From Nitrospira sp. (GTDB lineage: Bacteria; Nitrospirota; Nitrospiria; Nitrospirales; Nitrospiraceae), in the NCBI GenBank assembly GCA_023248215.1, contig JAHFEW010000007.1:1-64000 (forward strand): DNA of 64,000 bases, read 5' to 3'. The notes under the pieces are model-generated. The model was given only the letters and a program-made list of their open reading frames with translations, had not been told where the DNA came from and made no database searches. Both the position numbers and the translations under genes were made by a program. Positions 51,849 to 63,975 of the stretch are shown here, one piece after another. The first letter of the stretch is position 1. Each line of letters opens with the position of its first letter.

Positions 51849-53411
51849 GTGAACCGCGAACTCATTAGACCCCACAGAAACCGCCTCGAGTATTCTGGGT
51901 GCAGCCCTGGCCCTGCTTTGCGTCACCCTGATCCCTGTCGTACTGGTCGAGATCCCCCCGTTGGTGGACTACCCCAACCACATGGCCCGCATGCACATCC
52001 TGGCCGACGGCGGTCACTCTCCCTGGCTTCGTCAATACTACGAAATCCACTGGGGCATTCTGCCGAACCTATCGATGGATCTGGTGGTGCCTCCGCTCAC
52101 TCGATTCATGTCCCTCGAAACCGCAGGGAAAGTCTTCATCGGTCTGACATTCGCATTGCTGGCAGGCGGCGTAATGGCCTTACATGCGGCCTTGCATCGA
52201 CGCTGGTCGCCCTGGCCTCTGCTGGCATTCTTCTTTCTCTATAACAGTGTGTTCCTGTGGGGGTTTCTCAATTACCTCTTTGGACTCGGATTGGCCCTCC
52301 TCACCTGTGGACTGTGGATAGTCCTCCGCGATCGTTCCGCCACACTGATCGTTCCGCTGTTCTCACTATTGGCCGTCGTCCTGTTCTTCGCCCATCTCTT
52401 TGCGTTCGGCGTCTTCGCCATGATCGTGCTCGCATACGAGTTTGCCCAGTGGTGGACTTATCGTCGCGCCCCTGTTCGCACCCAAGACTTCCTTTCTGGA
52501 AAGCACTTCCGACCATCGTGCTGCCGCTCATCTTGTTGCTCCTGTCCCCGACGTTTCGAGCCACTCCTGACGACTACCCGTCCTGGCTCAGAGGATCGCC
52601 GCCTCTCCCGGCTGTCACCTTTGTTCCTCTCAACACAAGACTCGAAGCCCTGAAGGGCACCCTCCGAACGGAGCACCAGGTCCTGGATCGCGTGACCGGG
52701 CTCATGCTGGTCGGCCTCGTGGGAATCGGGCTGGCCTTGCGGCATTGCGCTGTCCTACCCTCGACGTACCTCCCACTCGCGGTGGTGGCCCTGGCGGCAC
52801 TGGCAATGCCCAGCACAATCGGCACCACCGGGCTGGTCGATATTCGGATGCCGATTGTCTCCATGTTACTCGCCCTTGCGAGTTCAGATTGGCCGGTGAC
52901 GAGCCGACGATGGTTCATGGCAGTCGCCCTGATGCTCGGCACGTTATTTGTGATTCGCATGGCCTATATCACGGACCACTGGCGTGACACGGATCGACAC
53001 TATCGCCAATTCGTGCAGACGCTCGACCAGCTTCCGGAAGGAGCCCGTCTGTTATCGGCCATCACACTCCCCGATGCTCCATCTCCAGTGGACAGGCGAC
53101 CACCTGAACCCATGCCGATGAGTAACCTGTCCTGCTGGGGGGTCATCCGGCGATCACTGTTTGTTTCGAACCTCTTTTCCGCACCAGGCCAACAGCCCGT
53201 TCAACTTACTCCGAAGGTTCGTTCCCCGCTGACGATGGGGGAATTCATCATTCAGTCGGCCCCGATCCCGTGGGACCGGCTCAGCACCCAGTACGATTAT
53301 GTGGTCATACGACGCGGGCAACGGCTGCCACAGGCCATTCCTGCCGATTTCATTCCGTTCGACTCCGGTGAGGAATTCCAATTCTACCGAATCGAAGGAC
53401 GGCGACCGTAG
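51849..53411 (+). pseudogene. Frameshifted polytopic membrane protein gene
   Basis: GTG at 51849 with GAGAGG upstream opens VNRELIRP; after the four C at 51870-51873 the coding-like reading continues in the next frame (TETASSILGAALALLCV through to YEFAQWWTYRR), and around the three T at 52493-52495 it returns to the first frame (FWKALPTIVLPLILL to the stop). Removing one C and adding one T would give a single protein of about 520 residues with many hydrophobic segments. The two shifts cancel each other. The family is not recognised. Either real decay or homopolymer errors in the sequence. Confidence 0.75.
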
Positions 53412-53444: not shown

Positions 53445-54500
53445 TTACTGGATTTTCGCGTTCCAGGTGTAGGACGACGTCACGGCATAATTCCATACCG
53501 TTCCCACGAGAATGCCTGCCAGCGCCGACAATCCCCAATTGAATTCCTGCGTAAACAGGTAGGACGCTACTCCCACGTTCCCGACGGCGCCAAGGCTGCA
53601 CACCAGGACGAAGGAGAGCCAGCCCCGCAGCCACTGCCACCCGCGTAAGCGCTGATCCCGATAGGTGACGACATTGTTCAAGATGAAGTTACTCGTCATC
53701 GCAATGAATGTCGCGGCTCCCTGTCCCCACGCAAACGGCCATGACGACCATCGATAGAGGAGCAGCAATACCGCGAAGTAGATCAGGAGCCCGGGCCGCC
53801 GACCAGAGAAAAGGTTACTAGACGCACGGGCACAAAGCGGCCGACAGACTTGTCGAGGAGGAGCATGAGATAGTCCCAGGCCACCTGGCTATCGACCTTG
53901 CTCTCCCCCGCCTGTCGCGTCCTAAATTCGCAGGGCAGTTCTTTGAACGTCAACGGATGCGGGGGAGGAGGCAAACAGATCCAGCAGCAATTTAAAACCG
54001 AGCCCGGACGTCCGCCGCACAAGCTGCTCGAACACCTCACGACGCAGCGCGAAAAACCCGCTCATTGGGTCCGTCAGACTGGCGGGCACCAACGGACGAC
54101 TCAACAGCGTGGCCCATCGACTGGTCAGGGCCCGTAGGCCGTCCCACTCGCCGATGCTGCCGCCGGCTTTGTATCGACTCCCGATGACGAGATCGTATCC
54201 GCCCTGTTTCAGGTTTCTGAGCATGTCGAGGAGCAGTCGTTCGTCATGCTGAAGGTCGCCGTCCATGACTGCAAGGAAGGGCGCGGAGCTGGACAGCATG
54301 CCTTCAATACAGGCAAGGATAACCCTCAACGCCCGATCCGTTGGAGACAGCGCACCCGATGGTTCGTGCCGGCCAGCCGGCGAACCAGGCCCGCTGTCAT
54401 GTCCGGAGAATCGTCAGGCTTCCAGGAGTTCGGCATGCTGGACGATATTGTCCCGCTCATTGAAGGTGGGGACAATGATGGAGAATTCAGGCCCTAACAA
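53445..54500 (-). pseudogene. Broken dolichol-P-mannose synthase/GtrA fusion gene
   Basis: Minus-strand fragments spell out a GT2 glycosyltransferase fused to a GtrA membrane domain: EFSIIVPTFNERDN from 54485 down, then DDSPD...LVRRLAG in another frame with a TGA between, APFLAVMDGDLQHDE in a third piece, PHPLTFKELPCEFRTRQAGESK after a shift near the C run around 53960, and finally LIYFAVLLLLYRW...SYTWNAKIQ after a shift near 53795. About ten codons expected between NERDN and DDSPD are missing, so not all lesions are simple base-call errors. The GtrA part is otherwise well kept. Possible TTG start at 54500. Confidence 0.8.
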
Positions 54501-56227: not shown

Positions 56228-56308
56228 ATGATTAGCTGCTTTCTTCACTTACGAAAGAAGGGTGTGAGATCGTGCCAATTGTTCCCGATGCCCCGTTTGC
56301 ATTCATAG
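56228..56308 (+). CDS. Short upstream frame, 26 aa, overlapping the DUF5752 start
   Basis: GAGGAGG followed by ATG at 56228 gives the best ribosome binding site in the region. The frame (MISCFLHLRKKGVRSC...) ends at 56308, 36 bases beyond the GTG of the DUF5752 gene, in a different frame. It could be a leader that couples translation, or just chance. Confidence 0.35.
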   Translation: MISCFLHLRKKGVRSCQLFPMPRLHS

Positions 56309-56946
56309 GTTGCAGCGAATTGCAGGAAAGCATAGCCCATCAGGCGGATGACGAAAAAGAGCTCGCGGAGTTGATTGAAGAAGTTCCGCTGGATTCGGTT
56401 CACTTTCACACCCATAGCTATTTTCTGCGCCATGGTTTGATTGAGGGAACCTACCCGAACGATTTTGCCCAATGGGTCGTAATGCAAATCGGTGATCACG
56501 TACTAGGGGAACGGCTGGCCGTTATTGACCCCTTCGATTATCCGGACTTGGAGGACCTTCGAGAGGAAATCATCTCCATCATCGACGACCATCTCTCCCG
56601 CACACCGATCATTCCACGAGTGGTATTTGGCCAACCATTTCATTTTAAACGTTCCCGGATTCTCGAGGTCCCGCTCGGACTGGAGGCGCGTACGCTGCAG
56701 GAGTTCCGCGACATGGTGGCCGATATCGACGTCAGCACCATCTACTTTCACATGTTCGAAGCCCATTTTCGCTTACGACGCGAAGAAAACGATTTCTCGG
56801 CCTGGATTCGTTCGAGACTTGGGCTTCTGAAATTGGCCGACCGCATCCGCACGATCAATCCATACCAGGGCAGTCTGGAACGGTTACGTTCCAGACTCAT
56901 CACAGTCTGCGATGAATTCCTCACCGGCGATTCGGCAAGGATCTGA
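56272..56946 (+). CDS. DUF5752 protein, 224 aa
   Basis: GTG start; no upstream in-frame start exists because a stop lies at 56233. FAFIGCSELQESI, DSVHFHTHSYFLRHGL and DVSTIYFHMFEAHFRLRREENDFSAW are the hallmarks of DUF5752: two related half-domains (about 1-105 and 115-224) that both contain a (S)xxFHxxxxxF-type motif. Function unknown; the family is regularly found beside trehalose synthase genes. Located four bases before treS. Cytoplasmic. Confidence 0.85.
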   Translation: MPIVPDAPFAFIGCSELQESIAHQADDEKELAELIEEVPLDSVHFHTHSYFLRHGLIEGTYPNDFAQWVVMQIGDHVLGERLAVIDPFDYPDLEDLREEIISIIDDHLSRTPIIPRVVFGQPFHFKRSRILEVPLGLEARTLQEFRDMVADIDVSTIYFHMFEAHFRLRREENDFSAWIRSRLGLLKLADRIRTINPYQGSLERLRSRLITVCDEFLTGDSARI

Positions 56947-56949
56947 TCG

Positions 56950-58629
56950 ATGCTGAATCAAGATCCACTCTGGTACAAGGACGCCGTGTTTTATGAGCTC
57001 CACGTCCGTGCCTTTTACGACGGCAACGACGATGGGATCGGGGATTTTTCCGGCCTGATCCACAAGCTGGATTACCTGGAATGGTTGGGAGTGGATTGCC
57101 TCTGGTTACTGCCGTTCTATCCCTCGCCCTTGCGGGATGACGGCTATGATGTGGCGGATTTCCGCAGCATCGCATCGTCGTACGGCACGGCGGAGGATTT
57201 CCGCCGGTTACTCGAAGAAGCCCACCGACGCGGCATGCGTGTGATCGTCGACCTCATCCTCAACCACACTTCCGACCAACATGCCTGGTTTCAAGCGGCG
57301 AGGACCTCCCCTGAGGCCCCCACGCGACAATACTACGTCTGGAGCGAGACGGATCACAAATATCCCCGCGCACGAATCATCTTCGTCGACACCGAAAAAT
57401 CCAATTGGACATGGGATTCGGAAGCCCAGGCTTACTTTTGGCATCGCTTCTTCAGTCACCAGCCGGACCTCAACTACGATAATCCCGAAGTCCGCCGCGC
57501 GATGATTCAGGTCATGGAGTATTGGCTCGACCAGGGCCTAGACGGGTTTCGATGCGATGCCGTGCCCTACCTGTTCGAGCGCGAGGACACGATCTGCGAG
57601 AACTTGCCGGAGACCCATCGCTACCTGAAAGAGATTCGTACCAGCATCGATCAGCGGTACAAGGGACGTGTCCTGTTGGCCGAGGCCAATCAGTGGCCGA
57701 GCGACGTACGCCCCTACTTCGGTGACGGCGACGAATTTCACATGGCCTTTCACTTCCCGCTCATGCCTCGCCTGTTCATGGGCGTCCGAAGCGAAGATCG
57801 CCAGCCGATCATCGACATGTTCAAACATACTCCCGAAATCCCCCCTGCCTGCCAGTGGTGCTTGTTTCTACGCAATCACGATGAGTTGACACTGGAAATG
57901 TGCACCGGTGAGGAACGTGATTATATGTATTACGCTTACGCTCGCGATCCTCAAATGCGCCGGAATATCGGAATCGCCCGTCGTCTGGCCCCACTCCTGG
58001 ACAACGATCGCCGCAAGGTGGAACTCCTGAACAGTATCGTGTTCACCCTGCCGGGCAGCCCGATCATTTACTACGGAGATGAAATCGGCATGGGGGACAA
58101 TATTCACCTGGGGGACCGGAGCGGGGTGCGTACGCCGATGCATTGGACGGCCGATCGCAACGCCGGATTCTCCAAAGCAGACCCATCTCAGTTGTTTCTT
58201 CCCGTGGTCACCGATGCGGTCTACGGCTACCAGTCCGTCAACATCGAGGCACAAAAACAAGCAACCCATTCCCTCCTCAACTGGATGCGGCGGATGATCG
58301 CCATCCGTAAGAAACATAAGGTCTTCGGTCGCGGGACGTTGGAGTTCCTGAACCCGGCGAACGAAAAAATTTTGGCCTACGTCCGTACCTACGAACAGCA
58401 GACCGTGCTGCTGGTGCACAACCTCGCAGAATCCTCACAGGCCGTCGAACTTGATCTCGGGCGTTACAAAGACATCGTTCCGGAAGAGTTGTTTGGAGAT
58501 TCGCGATTCCCCGTGATCGGCGAGGGCCCCTATGTCCTGACATTGGGGCCCTATAGTTCCTACTGGTTGCATCTTCCGGCAGTGCGGCCGCGGAATAGCG
58601 CCTATAGTATGGAGTGGAGTGCCATTTAA
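56950..58629 (+). CDS. treS: Trehalose synthase (maltose alpha-D-glucosyltransferase), 559 aa
   Basis: GH13 enzyme that interconverts maltose and trehalose. The N-terminus WYKDAVFYELHVRAFYDGNDDGIGDF is typical of TreS. Catalytic residues: nucleophile Asp203 in FRCDAVPYL, acid/base Glu245 in LAEANQWP, transition-state Asp in FLRNHDELTLEM. The C-terminal beta-domain is present, but there is no fused maltokinase (Pep2), which many bacterial TreS proteins have. Together with GlgE downstream this points to the TreS-Pep2-GlgE route, but the kinase is not in the window. Confidence 0.94.
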   Translation: MLNQDPLWYKDAVFYELHVRAFYDGNDDGIGDFSGLIHKLDYLEWLGVDCLWLLPFYPSPLRDDGYDVADFRSIASSYGTAEDFRRLLEEAHRRGMRVIVDLILNHTSDQHAWFQAARTSPEAPTRQYYVWSETDHKYPRARIIFVDTEKSNWTWDSEAQAYFWHRFFSHQPDLNYDNPEVRRAMIQVMEYWLDQGLDGFRCDAVPYLFEREDTICENLPETHRYLKEIRTSIDQRYKGRVLLAEANQWPSDVRPYFGDGDEFHMAFHFPLMPRLFMGVRSEDRQPIIDMFKHTPEIPPACQWCLFLRNHDELTLEMCTGEERDYMYYAYARDPQMRRNIGIARRLAPLLDNDRRKVELLNSIVFTLPGSPIIYYGDEIGMGDNIHLGDRSGVRTPMHWTADRNAGFSKADPSQLFLPVVTDAVYGYQSVNIEAQKQATHSLLNWMRRMIAIRKKHKVFGRGTLEFLNPANEKILAYVRTYEQQTVLLVHNLAESSQAVELDLGRYKDIVPEELFGDSRFPVIGEGPYVLTLGPYSSYWLHLPAVRPRNSAYSMEWSAI

Positions 58630-58669: not shown

Positions 58670-59869
58670 GTGAACTCGGCGTTGGACGAATATCGCGATG
58701 TGTCGCCGAAAGGCACGGTCGATTTTCTCTACCGGTTAAGCGATCTCGTGAAGGGCAAGAGTTTCCTCCATCTCAATGCGGTCCGGTACGGAGGTGGGAT
58801 GTCAGAGGTCTTGCGCCGTCTAGTCCCCATGATGGTGTCCTTGGGCGTGGAGGCGCGTTGGGAGGTCCTGGCGGGCACGCAGGAGTATTTCATCGTGGTC
58901 AATCGCATGATGAACGCCTTACAGGGACGAGACGAAAAGATCACCGACGATATGTACCACACCTATTCGAGCATCATCGAGCGCAACGCCAAGGCACTGA
59001 AACTCGAGGCCGACATGGTCATGGTCCACGACCATCAACCGGCGGGCCTAGTCGATTATCGAACCAACGGCTGTTGGTTGTGGCGCTGTCATTTGGACCT
59101 TGCACAGCCTCAACGGCGGGCCTGGACCTTTCTTCGACGCTCTGTCTTGAAGTATGACGCCGCGATCTTTTCGCTTTCCGGCTTTGCCCAACGGCTGCCG
59201 ATTCCCAAGTTCCTGGTCTATCCGTCCATTGATCCGTTGAGCCCGAAGAACCGTGAGATGGGGCGATCGGAAATCACCCAGATAATTGATCGGCTCGGCA
59301 TTCATCGAACCAAGCCCATGCTGTTGCAGGTCGCCCGCTTCGATCGGTTTAAGGATCCTTTAGGCGCCATTCAGGCCTATCGGCTCGTGAAAAAGCACCA
59401 CGACTGCCAGCTGGTGTTAGCCGGCTCCGGTGTGATGCATGACCCGGAAGGTGAGGCGGTCCTCGCTGAACTCCGCGAGTCGGCGGGCCGCGACTCCGAT
59501 ATTCATGTCATCCAACTCCCTCCCGAGGCAGACCTGGAAATCAACGCGTTGCAACGGAGCGCCACAGTCGTGCTCCAAAAGTCCATCAAAGAAGGCTTCG
59601 GCCTGACAGTTTCGGAAGCCATGTGGAAAGGAAAACCCGTGGTGGGGAGCACGGCCGGGGGAATTGCCGCTCAAATCGTCGACGGGGTCACGGGGTATGT
59701 GGTCCATTCCGTGGAGGGGGCGGGGTTTCGGATGCGTCATTTGCTCAACAATCCCGGGCTGATGAACAGGATGGGAGCCATGGCACGCGAACATGTACGG
59801 CGCAATTTCCTCATTACCAGACAACTCTGCGACTACCTCACATTGCTGAAGGTCTTGCCCGCATCCTGA
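58670..59869 (+). CDS. treT: Trehalose glycosyltransferring synthase, 399 aa
   Basis: GT4-family retaining glycosyltransferase, which joins NDP-glucose and glucose to trehalose (and can run in reverse). Family marks: FLHLNAVRYGGGMSEVLRRLVPMM, MVHDHQPAGL, LWRCHLDLAQP (TreT-typical VWRCHID region), the Rossmann C-half LLQVARFDRFKDP, and EGFGLTVSEAMWKGKPVVG for nucleotide-sugar binding. GTG start with GGAG upstream. Acts in the cytoplasm. Confidence 0.9.
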   Translation: MNSALDEYRDVSPKGTVDFLYRLSDLVKGKSFLHLNAVRYGGGMSEVLRRLVPMMVSLGVEARWEVLAGTQEYFIVVNRMMNALQGRDEKITDDMYHTYSSIIERNAKALKLEADMVMVHDHQPAGLVDYRTNGCWLWRCHLDLAQPQRRAWTFLRRSVLKYDAAIFSLSGFAQRLPIPKFLVYPSIDPLSPKNREMGRSEITQIIDRLGIHRTKPMLLQVARFDRFKDPLGAIQAYRLVKKHHDCQLVLAGSGVMHDPEGEAVLAELRESAGRDSDIHVIQLPPEADLEINALQRSATVVLQKSIKEGFGLTVSEAMWKGKPVVGSTAGGIAAQIVDGVTGYVVHSVEGAGFRMRHLLNNPGLMNRMGAMAREHVRRNFLITRQLCDYLTLLKVLPAS

Positions 59870-59937: not shown

Positions 59938-61209
59938 GTGACAAATGAGCAAACCGTGCTTGGCTCTCCCGGTATTGAGGGCGAACAGCCGACAGACACA
60001 ACGGAGATCATCGTGGGCCTGCTGACCCTCAATAACGCCGCCACGATCGAATCCATCGTGAAATCCGTGCTGGAAGGCTTGCAGCAATCGTTTCCCGATA
60101 TTCCCGCCCTTCTTGTAAATTGCGACGCCGGTTCACAAGACGGCACGCCGGGAATCATCGATCGGGTCGCCGCCGGCATGGTCCCGGTCCGGATGATTCC
60201 CAATGCTGCCAGCACCTATGCGAATCTAACCAGGGAGTCCGGTTTTCCCGGGCGAGCCGAAAGTATCCGCAATCTCTGCCTCGCCGCCCAGCAACTCCAG
60301 CCGAAAGTTTGCCTGATCCTCGAGGGGCAGCTTCGCTCGCTCAGCTCTGGTTGGATCGATCAACTGGCCAGACCAGTGTATGAGGCGGGCGAGGATTATG
60401 TAGTCCCGCTCTACCGACGTCACCGCTACGAGGGCACATTGGTCAATAACCTCCTCTACCCGTTAACACGTGCCCTGTATGGGAAGCGCTTGCGGTATCC
60501 GAGCGGAGGCGCCTACGGCCTATCGGGAAAGTTCGCCCGCGATCTGCTCACCCGGTCGACGTGGACGGGAGCCGCGGGCAAATTCAGTGTGGACGGCTGG
60601 ATGACAACCGCCGCTCTAGCCGGCGGGTATCGCGTCTGTCACGCCTTTCTCGGCACCCGGGATCAAGACACCAAGATTGGGTCAGTCGATCTGTCCATCG
60701 TCCTTGCGCAAACGGTGGGGGGAATTTTTCATTCGATGGAGGAATACGAATCCGCCTGGGAACGGACGAAGGAATCCAGCGAGGTACCGCTCTACGGTAT
60801 ACCCCAAACGGCCCCCGATCCCGGCCCCTTGCAAACCGGCCGCATGATAAGCGGGTTTAAACAGGGCTTGCGTGATCTCCTCCCGCTTTGGGAATTGATC
60901 CTCTCTCGGGACACATTGGGACAGATCCTCACGCTCGACATGCAGGACGCCGAGGACTTTCGTTTTCCGCCGGAACTCTGGGTTCAGACGGTCTACGATT
61001 TCGCCCTGGCCTACCACGATCAGACATTGCATCGGGAGCACATGCTGAAATCGCTGACCCCGCTCTATCTCGGGCGCACGGCCTCCTTCGTCCTGGAAAC
61101 ACAGGACGGTGATGGAGCCCAGGTGGACAGGGCGGTGGAAGCACTCTGCAGGCAGTTTGAACGGTCGAAGCCCTATCTGGTCGAGCAATGGAGGTGGCGC
61201 GATGAGTGA
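59938..61209 (+). CDS. GT81-like (glucosylglycerate synthase type) protein with altered metal site, 423 aa
   Basis: Resembles GpgS/mannosylglycerate synthase: NNAATIESIVKSVLEG, LLVNCDAGSQDGT, then RSLSSGWIDQLARPV, YVVPLYRRHRYEGTLVNNLLYPLTRALYGKRLRYP, and FSVDGWMTTAAL. The expected DxD of GpgS (DSDLRS) is here EGQLRS (Glu129-Gln131), GGDFG has become GGAYG, and the His of the later HD motif is Gln243. These are the metal and sugar-phosphate positions I recall from the mycobacterial enzyme. The protein is likely inactive as a normal transferase or has changed specificity. GTG start. Confidence 0.8.
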   Translation: MTNEQTVLGSPGIEGEQPTDTTEIIVGLLTLNNAATIESIVKSVLEGLQQSFPDIPALLVNCDAGSQDGTPGIIDRVAAGMVPVRMIPNAASTYANLTRESGFPGRAESIRNLCLAAQQLQPKVCLILEGQLRSLSSGWIDQLARPVYEAGEDYVVPLYRRHRYEGTLVNNLLYPLTRALYGKRLRYPSGGAYGLSGKFARDLLTRSTWTGAAGKFSVDGWMTTAALAGGYRVCHAFLGTRDQDTKIGSVDLSIVLAQTVGGIFHSMEEYESAWERTKESSEVPLYGIPQTAPDPGPLQTGRMISGFKQGLRDLLPLWELILSRDTLGQILTLDMQDAEDFRFPPELWVQTVYDFALAYHDQTLHREHMLKSLTPLYLGRTASFVLETQDGDGAQVDRAVEALCRQFERSKPYLVEQWRWRDE

Positions 61210-61903
61210 CCTGTGGCGCGATACAGTGGTCGCCGGATTTCGTGACACCGTCATGCAGATCGTGCTCGTGTTGCCGCGGCTCCTCGCACTGTTCACCTTT
61301 CTGGCGTTGGGGATCATGGCAGCCTGGTTCGTCAGGACGCTGACGCTGCGACTCCTTCGAACATTCGGTTTCGACCTGTTTTGTGAACGTTTGGGCGTCG
61401 CCCAGCCGCTCTCTCAGGCAGGCGTCAGGCAGCCGGTTTCGTCGGTGGTCAGCCGTATCCTGTTCTGGATCGTCTTTCTGTTGTTTACCTTTATGGGCGT
61501 CGACGCGATGAATCTGCCGGCCACAGCCAATTTGATCAGCCAGATCGTCGGCTTTCTGCCGAATGTCCTCGCCGCGTCGCTCGTGCTTTTCGTGGGCATG
61601 CTCTGCGCCAACTTCTTTGCCGAAGCCGCCCTGATTGCTGCCGTCAACGCCCAGGTCGAGGAGGCCCGCGTCGTCGCTGGTTTGGTGCGATGGGGGCTGC
61701 TGCTGTTTACGTTCGCCATGGTGCTGACTCAGTTGGGTATCGCCAAAGAGATTGTCATCGCAGCCTTCTCGATCACCTTCGGCGGCGTCGTGCTCGCGCT
61801 GGCCCTGGCGGTGGGCTTGGGAGCCCGCCATCTCATGCGCAAGGCACTGGAACGACGTTTCGGGCACCACGAACACAAACCGGACGAGTTGTCGCATCTA
61901 TGA
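61202..61903 (+). CDS. MscS-related membrane protein (TM-helix repeat), 233 aa
   Basis: Five hydrophobic segments (about 19-42, 76-94, 104-135, 152-173, 178-205). ITFGGVVLALALAVGLGARHLM resembles the pore-lining TM3 of MscS-type channels, and the first parts the TM_helix family. The MscS cytoplasmic beta/alpha vestibule is missing, so it is not a full MscS channel. Sits between two osmolyte enzymes, overlapping both (8 bases and 4 bases). A mechanosensitive or solute-release role is likely from context only. Confidence 0.8.
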   Translation: MSDLWRDTVVAGFRDTVMQIVLVLPRLLALFTFLALGIMAAWFVRTLTLRLLRTFGFDLFCERLGVAQPLSQAGVRQPVSSVVSRILFWIVFLLFTFMGVDAMNLPATANLISQIVGFLPNVLAASLVLFVGMLCANFFAEAALIAAVNAQVEEARVVAGLVRWGLLLFTFAMVLTQLGIAKEIVIAAFSITFGGVVLALALAVGLGARHLMRKALERRFGHHEHKPDELSHL

Positions 61904-63975
61904 AAAAAACACGAGCAAAGGAGTCGAAGAACGATGCCGGGACTGCGCGCCACGCATCCGCGAACCGCAGCACGCCCCAGTCCCTGATTGGTGAAGGGCG
62001 CAGGAGAGTGGCGATTGAGCATGTCGAGCCGGAGATCGACGGCGGGCGTTATCCGATCAAGCGGGTAGTCGGCGACGCGATTGTGGTCGAGGCAGACCTC
62101 TTCGCAGACGGACACGACGTCATCCGCGGAATGCTGCGCTTCCGTCATGAACAGAACTTGGACTGGCAGGAGGTTCCGCTCGAGCCGATCGATAACGACC
62201 GGTGGCGAGCGTCCTTCGATGCTACCGAACTCGGACGGTATCACTATTGCGTGACAGGCTGGGTAGATCATTTTGCGACCTGGCAACGCGACATGCACAG
62301 GCGATTGGCGGCGCAACGGGACATCACGGTGGACATTCTGATCGGGAAGCGTCTCGTCGAGGAGGCGACGACACGGGCGTCCGGCGAGTCTGGGGAGAGG
62401 CTGAGGGCCATAGCCGCTACCGTGCAGTCCTCCCCGCCTGTACAGCAATGTCAGTTGGATCTGCTTCTCAGCCAGGAGGTTGCCGATGTGATGGCGGTTT
62501 GCGTGGATCGCCGGTGGGCCACGACCTACGACAAGGAACTCTCAGTCGTGGTTGATCGCCCAAAGGCTCGTTTCAGTGCGTGGTACGAAATGTTCCCACG
62601 CTCCTCCGCCGGCGAACCTCGGCCGCACGGGACCTTTGGGGATTGCGAAGCGCGACTGCCCTACATTGCTGACATGGGATTTGATGTCCTGTATCTCCCT
62701 CCCATCCATCCCATCGGACAAACGCTTCGAAAAGGCAGGAACAACAACCCGGAGGGCGACCCCGACTCGGTGGGCAGTCCATGGGCCATCGGCGCGGCCG
62801 AGGGCGGCCACACCGCCATTCATGCCCATCTCGGCACCGTAGACGATTTCAAACGACTGGTCGCCGCAGCCAACCGGCGAGGGATCGAGGTCGCGATGGA
62901 CCTGGCCTTTCAATGTTCTCCCGATCATCCCTACGTGAAGCAACATCCGGAATGGTTTACCAGGCGCCCCGACGGCACGATTCAATTCGCGGAAAATCCA
63001 CCCAAACAGTATCAGGACATCTTTCCGCTGAATTTCGAAAGCGATGAGTATCAGGGGTTATGGAAGGAACTCCGATCAGTAGTGGAGTACTGGATCGATC
63101 ACGGCATCCGCATCTTCCGCGTCGACAACCCCCATACCAAACCTTTTCTCTTTTGGAATTGGTTGATCACCGACATCAAGAGCCGGTACCCGGATGCGAT
63201 TTTTCTTGCCGAAGCTTTTACCAGACCGAAGGTGATGTACCACCTGGCCAAACTGGGCTTCACTCAGTCCTATACCTACTTCGCCTGGCGCAATACCAAG
63301 ACCGAGCTGACAGCCTATTTCACGGAACTGACCGGGACCGACGTCCGGGAGTATTTCCGGCCCAACTTATGGCCCAATACACCCGATATTCTGACCGAGC
63401 ACCTGCAACATGGAGGGCGTCCGGTCTTCATGGCCCGGCTGGCGTTGGCTGCCACGCTCGGGGCCAGCTATGGCATCTATGGACCCGCCTTTGAACTGTA
63501 TGAAGATCGCCCGCAGAAACCCGGCAGCGAGGAGTACTTGAACTCCGAGAAGTATGAGATCCAACGCTGGGATATCACGAGATCTGACAGCCTGAGAGAA
63601 TTTATCGGGCTGGTCAACCGCATCCGGCGCGAGAATCCCGCCCTGCAGAGTGATGCCAGCTTGCGGTTTCACCACATCGACAACGACCAACTGCTTGCCT
63701 ACAGCAAGCAGTCACCGGACAGTTCGAACGTCATCTTGGTCGTGATCAATCTGAGCCCTCACCATATTCATTCCGGCTGGCTCAATCTGGATCTGGAGTT
63801 GCTGGGGTTGCAAGGCGATCGTCCCTTCCAGGTCCACGACCTGCTGACGAATGCTTACTACCTCTGGCAAGGCGCGAAAAATTTCGTCCAGCTCGATCCG
63901 CATTCCGTGCCGGTTCAGATTTTTGCTGTACGGCGGAACCTGAGACGAGAGCAAGACTTCGACTACTTCATGTAG
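61900..63975 (+). CDS. glgE: Alpha-1,4-glucan:maltose-1-phosphate maltosyltransferase GlgE, 691 aa
   Basis: GH13_3 enzyme, transfers maltosyl from maltose 1-phosphate to alpha-glucan. A basic 30-residue extension precedes the N-terminal domain (RRVAIEHVEPEIDGGRYPIKRVVGD). Core: WYEMFPRS, LYLPPIHPIG, nucleophile Asp409 in FRVDNPHTKPF, Glu438 in FLAEAFTRP, then QSYTYFAWRNTK and a YGIYGPAFELYED region, all GlgE-typical. ATG overlaps the MscS-like stop (ATGA). Needs maltose 1-phosphate, so a maltokinase should exist elsewhere. GlgE glucan is a storage or capsule polymer. Confidence 0.95.
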   Translation: MKKTRAKESKNDAGTARHASANRSTPQSLIGEGRRRVAIEHVEPEIDGGRYPIKRVVGDAIVVEADLFADGHDVIRGMLRFRHEQNLDWQEVPLEPIDNDRWRASFDATELGRYHYCVTGWVDHFATWQRDMHRRLAAQRDITVDILIGKRLVEEATTRASGESGERLRAIAATVQSSPPVQQCQLDLLLSQEVADVMAVCVDRRWATTYDKELSVVVDRPKARFSAWYEMFPRSSAGEPRPHGTFGDCEARLPYIADMGFDVLYLPPIHPIGQTLRKGRNNNPEGDPDSVGSPWAIGAAEGGHTAIHAHLGTVDDFKRLVAAANRRGIEVAMDLAFQCSPDHPYVKQHPEWFTRRPDGTIQFAENPPKQYQDIFPLNFESDEYQGLWKELRSVVEYWIDHGIRIFRVDNPHTKPFLFWNWLITDIKSRYPDAIFLAEAFTRPKVMYHLAKLGFTQSYTYFAWRNTKTELTAYFTELTGTDVREYFRPNLWPNTPDILTEHLQHGGRPVFMARLALAATLGASYGIYGPAFELYEDRPQKPGSEEYLNSEKYEIQRWDITRSDSLREFIGLVNRIRRENPALQSDASLRFHHIDNDQLLAYSKQSPDSSNVILVVINLSPHHIHSGWLNLDLELLGLQGDRPFQVHDLLTNAYYLWQGAKNFVQLDPHSVPVQIFAVRRNLRREQDFDYFM

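Follow-up and report, generated by a model that had tools for sequence, protein, structure and literature searches.

A glycosyltransferase homologue without its metal ligands is maintained in a trehalose/GlgE operon of Nitrospiraceae, probably as a non-catalytic partner

In a stretch of 64,000 nucleotides of Nitrospira sp. DNA (the window), an operon of the trehalose/GlgE route contains a glycosyltransferase homologue in which both protein metal ligands are replaced. We refer to this copy (59938-61209) as GTA and to its canonical paralogue as GTB. GTA has been preserved in every such operon that was examined despite the loss of its metal-binding residues, and hence it probably now serves other proteins in a regulatory or structural role and no longer works as an enzyme. 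From sequence comparison, the explanation we favour is that GTA is an old duplicate which lost metal-dependent catalysis and persists as a non-catalytic partner of the DUF5752-TreS-TreT unit.

Operon structure and linkage of GTA

The operon carries the following genes within the window, and Mak (maltokinase) and GlgB follow beyond it, as seen from the downstream genes of L060.

56272-56946 (+): DUF5752 protein (PF19027, E 1e-64)
56950-58629 (+): TreS, maltose alpha-D-glucosyltransferase (trehalose synthase) (TIGR02456, E 6.5e-275)
58670-59869 (+): TreT, trehalose synthase of family GT4, E-x7-E intact (PF21269, E 2.4e-45; NF041139, E 7.8e-107)
59938-61209 (+): GTA, GT78-fold glycosyltransferase homologue without metal ligands, 423 aa, intact ORF with a GTG start
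61202-61903 (+): Msc, multi-pass membrane protein with MscS-family TM helices (PF05552), its start overlapping the GTA stop by 8 bases
61888-63975 (+): GlgE, directly after Msc (PF11896, E 4.1e-56)

The overlap of GTA with its downstream neighbour had been noted in a preliminary description of the gene, and the GTA stop and the next ATG (61202) do share these 8 bases. No match to the MscS pore domain was found in Msc (61202-61903).

The linkage of GTA was surveyed in 147 Nitrospiraceae genomes, an operon-type TreT being defined by an identity of at least 67% (n=42). The GTA slot lies directly downstream of TreT in all 42 genomes with an operon-type TreT, a count that takes in one unusual copy (G030) and one interrupted copy (G017), both described below. 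The next-best TreT copies (at most 59% identity) have no GTA directly downstream. In 34 of the 42 loci the GTA and Msc frames share 8 or 4 bases. A strict link of GTA to Msc was rejected, as GTA has no Msc-like gene next to it at four loci of one genus (L141, L185, L187 and L188), and so was a strict link to GlgE, which is missing from the neighbourhood at L138 and L141 and lies about 15 kb away in L185, while DUF5752-TreS-TreT stays beside GTA wherever the contig reaches. The constant unit is therefore DUF5752-TreS-TreT-GTA, since the Msc-like gene and a neighbouring GlgE are each missing at some loci. The placing of the gene in a trehalose/GlgE operon stands, with the reservation that GlgE is not a constant neighbour. 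A plasmid search gave one weak archaeal match.

In a further set of genomes (L172-L181) the operon is rearranged to GlgE-Mak-DUF5752-TreS-TreT-GTA-Msc, with a GlgE of about 50% identity and the same GTA. In the related genomes of L045, L049 and L051, a canonical GTB-Msc pair directly precedes DUF5752-TreT, which may point to how GTA came to its place. Msc-like genes (61202-61903 in the window, L058:5552-6256) match PF05552 only and accompany GTA- or GTB-type glycosyltransferases across Nitrospirota; the glycosyltransferase and the Msc-like gene seem to have been duplicated together as a pair.

Further upstream in the window, a multi-pass membrane protein (51853-53411, +) is seemingly split by a frameshift near 52.6 kb, the frames 51853-52653 and 52245-53411 appearing to continue each other. 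On the opposite strand (53445-54413, -), a truncated GT2 glycosyltransferase (PF00535) is followed by a hydrophobic frame, maybe GtrA-like, and this pair looks broken.

Replacement of the metal-binding and catalytic residues

The sequence features of GTA are as follows, with counts from a comparison set of 40 GTA and 54 GTB sequences of Nitrospirota, most of whose genomes are MAGs.

60124-60147 (+): nucleotide-binding motif D63-x-G-S-x-D-x-T70, kept; D63, S66 and D68 in 40/40 GTA and 54/54 GTB
60253-60255 (+): R106 in place of the catalytic Lys (GpgS K114, MGS K76), aligned to GpgS PGKG; R in 39/40 GTA, K in 54/54 GTB
60322-60330 (+): E129-G130-Q131 in place of DxD, equivalent to MGS D100/D102 and GpgS DSD, with Q131 at the metal-binding Asp
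60505-60513 (+): G190-G191-A192 in place of GG(D/E); A, G or C in 40/40 GTA, D or E in 54/54 GTB
60592-60594 (+): D219 (GpgS E232, MGS D192), kept in 40/40 GTA and 54/54 GTB
60664-60666 (+): Q243 in place of the metal-binding His (MGS H217, GpgS H258), on residue counts in GTA versus GTB
60838-61197 (+): C-terminal helical domain (residues 301-420); in GTA its conservation exceeds that of the catalytic domain, and in GTB the order is reversed

The preliminary description had reported EGQ (129-131), GGA and Gln243 in place of the DxD, the GGD loop and the His of the HD motif, and conserved stretches PLYRRHRYEGT and YPLTRALYGKR; all of these were located, GGA at 190-192 and the two stretches at 157-167 and 174-184. 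Two further changes were observed beyond that list, namely Lys106 to Arg and E225 to A, V or L.

The reference for these positions is GTB (G000:C123), which is encoded in the same genome, is 41% identical to GTA and has all catalytic and metal-binding residues intact. It is adjoined by its own Msc-like gene, 41% identical to that of the operon, and by a gene of the mannosyl-3-phosphoglycerate-phosphatase family, which is often the case for canonical paralogues of Nitrospirota. GTB carries the motifs GKG, VDSDLRS, PIGGDFG and AKIHNP, the last three of which read LEGQLRS, PSGGAYG and TRDQDT in GTA, and the two proteins align without gaps through the motif stretches. Neither phmmer with the single GTA protein nor a profile of GTA sequences alone recovered a solved relative, and the equivalences were therefore drawn through the GTB profile and the fold. 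The GTB profile aligns to the mannosylglycerate synthase (MGS) of R. marinus (E 3e-6) and to GpgS of M. hassiacum (E 4e-4), placing its residues on the published ligands. A misaligned DxD, foreseen earlier as a source of error, was rejected, since EGQ and its flanks align gap-free to VDSDLRS of GTB and the GTB profile lands on the ligands of MGS and GpgS.

The metal is bound by Asp136 in GpgS and by Asp102 and His217 in MGS, and an ion-pair network is formed by Asp134-Lys114-Glu232 in GpgS and by Asp100-Lys76-Asp192 in MGS (PMC2581804). The K76A mutant of MGS is inactive, and in Mnn9 the His equivalent to the metal-binding His is indispensable (PMC3787745). When these residues are equated with the changed positions, both protein metal ligands are lost in GTA, while the triad is changed in a manner that preserves charge: R106-E129-D219 keeps the charges of Lys76-Asp100-Asp192 with two of the three residues altered. 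D219 could re-form an ion-pair triad with E129 and R106. MGS and GpgS, used as references, indicate that the residues of GTB are ancestral.

The changes extend across the clade. The GTA sequences fall under six genus labels of Nitrospiraceae (g1, g2, g6, g21, g24 and g148), and GTA forms one clade (support 100/99) in a tree with 73 rows, of which 23 are GTA. At position 131 Asp is found in none of the 40 GTA sequences (N 27, Q 11, G 1, S 1) and in all 54 GTB sequences. As the second Asp is missing from all 40 members and from none of the 54 canonical relatives, the substitutions are not due to chance. At residue 243, GTA has Q in 32, H in 3, L in 2, R in 2 and E in 1, versus H in 54/54 GTB; Lys106 and an acidic residue 192 are each present in 0/40 GTA versus 54/54 GTB. 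D165 and T169 are also changed in GTA. D219, D63, S66, D68 and R161 are invariant in both sets. Reading the DxD as EGQ holds for the window copy, and the clade-wide event is the replacement of the second Asp by Asn or Gln; the first Asp changed to Glu late, and residue 129 is E in 17 and D in 23 GTA sequences.

Fold and family assignment

The AlphaFold model of GTA (pLDDT 83.6) was compared with the solved enzymes. It matches MGS (GT78) with Z 32.8 and 3.4 A over 352 aligned residues, spanning model residues 24-415, and GpgS (GT81) with Z 19 over 226 residues, which is little more than the GT-A core. GTB behaved alike, with Z 33.9 for GT78 and 20.0 for GT81. The full-length match to MGS against a core-only match to GpgS makes GT78-like a better label than the GT81-like proposed earlier; a superposition on GpgS had been suggested at that time, and it does recover a common GT-A core.

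The model of GTA contains both the GT-A core and the C-terminal domain of GT78. The likeness to MGS of Rhodothermus marinus (PDB 2Y4M/2BO4) is one of full-length fold including the C-terminal domain, and D219 corresponds to MGS D192, but identity is 12%, and MGS Asp102, His217, Lys76 and the Glu of PLGGE are all replaced in GTA. In place of the second Asp of DxD and the C-terminal His that form the GT78 metal site, GTA has Q131 and Q243, the canonical residues occurring in 0/40 and 3/40 members of the clade. With GpgS of Mycobacterium (GT81) GTA has the GT-A core in common and its active-site residues can be equated, but the metal ligands belong to GpgS alone, EGQ and Q243 standing where GT81 has its DSD motif and metal-binding His. 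Window GTA gave no match to the Pfam MGS_GT family (PF21969) at E 0.1, and 3 of 24 aligned relatives did (best E 2e-8); against the GpgS profile NF010496 it scored 15.9 bits versus a cut-off of 262, over residues 21-82 only. GTB has the same fold, adjoining membrane-protein gene and 41% identity to GTA, but differs in K106, D129xD131, GG(D/E)192 and H243 (54/54) and in having the catalytic domain as its more conserved part.

Purifying selection and shift of constraint

Omega was estimated after Nei-Gojobori as simple pairwise counts in four comparison sets, some with dS near 1, and was 0.08-0.14 for GTA, 0.04-0.06 for TreT, 0.11-0.15 for GlgE, 0.18-0.24 for Mak and 0.02 for GTB. GTA is under purifying selection, which is weaker than in GTB. 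Together with its presence in 42/42 operons, this bears out the earlier impression that the gene is maintained. Descent from an apparently active family with loss of catalytic residues, and upkeep by purifying selection, are two marks of a pseudo-glycosyltransferase that are found in GTA.

Tree lengths were determined on a fixed topology for the catalytic (22-272) and the C-terminal (301-420) domains. For the catalytic domain they were 7.15 in GTA versus 3.50 in GTB, and for the C-terminal domain 4.24 versus 11.09. The column-identity difference of contrasts (domain by GTA/GTB) was 0.40, with a bootstrap range of 0.335-0.471. In GTA the stronger constraint now lies on the C-terminal domain and no longer on the catalytic one, and nine positions are newly fixed in GTA, including E275, G306, Q350 and R419.

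Unusual copies

The copy of G030 (L044:7688-8944), in the same operon slot, retains DAD and His243 and carries Met106, Gly192 and Gln216 (in place of F216). The catalytic domain of this copy resembles GTB more closely (0.47, versus 0.38 for GTA), and the C-terminal domain resembles GTA more closely (0.61, versus 0.49 for GTB). The G030 copy seems, from its sequence, to have lost catalytic residues by another route while having the C-terminal trait in common with GTA. Its branch in the tree is long and its placing uncertain; if it is an early branch of GTA, the C-terminal change would have come first and the catalytic residues would have been lost by separate routes, which is to be expected if catalysis is not under selection. 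In G017, the GTA gene has an in-frame TAG (L040:10660-10690) at codon 243, that of the lost metal-binding His, with the frame open afterwards. This is either an error or a sign that GTA can be lost.

Possible functions of GTA

GTA stems from an ancient duplication of a GT78-type glycerate glycosyltransferase. We propose that the adjoining membrane-protein gene was duplicated with it in an ancestor within Nitrospiraceae, and that the duplicate came to be placed in a trehalose-to-alpha-glucan operon. The metal-binding Asp and His, the catalytic Lys and the acidic loop residue were replaced, so that metal-dependent transfer has most likely gone. As the fold, DxGSxD, Arg161 and an altered triad (E/D129-R106-D219) are kept, GTA may have retained the binding of a nucleotide or nucleotide sugar. 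Selection now acts most strongly on the C-terminal domain. GTA would be a subunit with a regulatory or structural task, in all probability belonging to TreT, which always adjoins it, or to the DUF5752-TreS-TreT unit, the candidate partner being indicated by gene order. It would perhaps report the nucleotide-sugar state and, where Msc is present, dock to the overlapping membrane protein. A pseudoenzyme regulating TreT or GlgE had been suggested at the outset. A pseudoenzyme is indeed the likeliest state of GTA; GlgE is not a constant neighbour. A new chemistry, the other suggestion made then, is less likely; no new basic residue that might compensate was found in the site. More specifically and more tentatively, GTA might be a metal-free GT-A nucleotide-sugar sensor that governs TreT/TreS by way of its C-terminal domain and thereby decides whether trehalose serves as osmolyte or as glucan precursor; in most genomes it would be coupled to the membrane protein with MscS-type helices.

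There are precedents for such a role. COSMC (C1GALT1C1), a pseudo-glycosyltransferase, is a duplicate without DxD that serves an active GT31 enzyme as chaperone and non-catalytic partner (PMC7185993); it differs from GTA in family and in being eukaryotic, and the GTA partner is a candidate from gene order. In the yeast Mnn9-Van1 system (GT62), whose fold is similar to that of GT78, Mnn9 allosterically activates its partner transferase even when inactive (PMC3787745), but Mnn9 is an active enzyme with its ligands intact. Some observations argue against the partner role: the triad, DxGSxD and Arg161 are kept though a pure scaffold has no obvious need of them, residue 243 is still His in 3/40 GTA, and there is the in-frame TAG of G017, with most genomes being MAGs.

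The kept residues also underlie the strongest rival, which we nevertheless regard as rather unlikely. On this view GTA would be a metal-independent transferase of the GT-A type: Arg106, with further basic residues, would stabilise the diphosphate as it leaves, and the product would be a glycoside of glycerate or of a different acceptor related to the trehalose/glucan pathway. The triad is conservatively kept and D63/S66/D68 and R161 are invariant; ScMnn9 is active with Arg (R209) at the K76 position (PMC3787745), and GT14 and bacterial GT6 enzymes have lost DxD and work without metal (PMC7185993). However, we found no new conserved basic residue near the site apart from the K-to-R changes, D165, T169 and the acidic residue 192 are also changed, constraint on the catalytic domain is lower than on the C-terminal one, and the L044 copy, which keeps its metal ligands, has lost the Lys.

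Asn and Gln can ligate metals weakly. A weakened metal-using GTA with a new donor or acceptor, employing Asn/Gln131 and Gln243 as poor ligands, would suit the prevalence of Asn131 (27/40) and of Gln243 at the His site (32/40), but it is improbable: in most members both sites hold neutral amides, with Gly, Ser, Leu, Arg or Glu in others, and Mnn9 cannot do without the corresponding His (PMC3787745).

It is very doubtful that GTA regulates GTB in a hetero-oligomer instead of the trehalose enzymes; the paralogues occur together in most GTA-bearing genomes, but in most genomes GTB stands without GTA, and dependence on GTB was rejected because the near-complete G024, G169 and G197 have GTA without any GTB. 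A functionless duplicate decaying towards loss, for which its faster evolution than TreS/TreT and the TAG of G017 might speak, is just as implausible, a pseudogene being largely refuted by an omega well below 1 (close to that of GlgE and below that of Mak in the same operon), retention in every operon, nine newly fixed positions and one clade across several genera.

Significance

In the open-licence PMC texts, we found no report of glucosylglycerate work in Nitrospira and no described regulator of the GTA type for the trehalose/GlgE route to glycogen, and a search there on pseudo-glycosyltransferases gave VldE and unrelated work. Known glycosyltransferases that combine a loss of catalysis with a conserved role are few, and the examples found in these texts were eukaryotic. 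GTA is old, has become fixed in the bacterial family to which the nitrite oxidiser Nitrospira belongs, and is tied to the trehalose/GlgE route. With an intact paralogue, a half-changed copy in one genus and a shift of constraint, the passage from enzyme to partner becomes directly testable.
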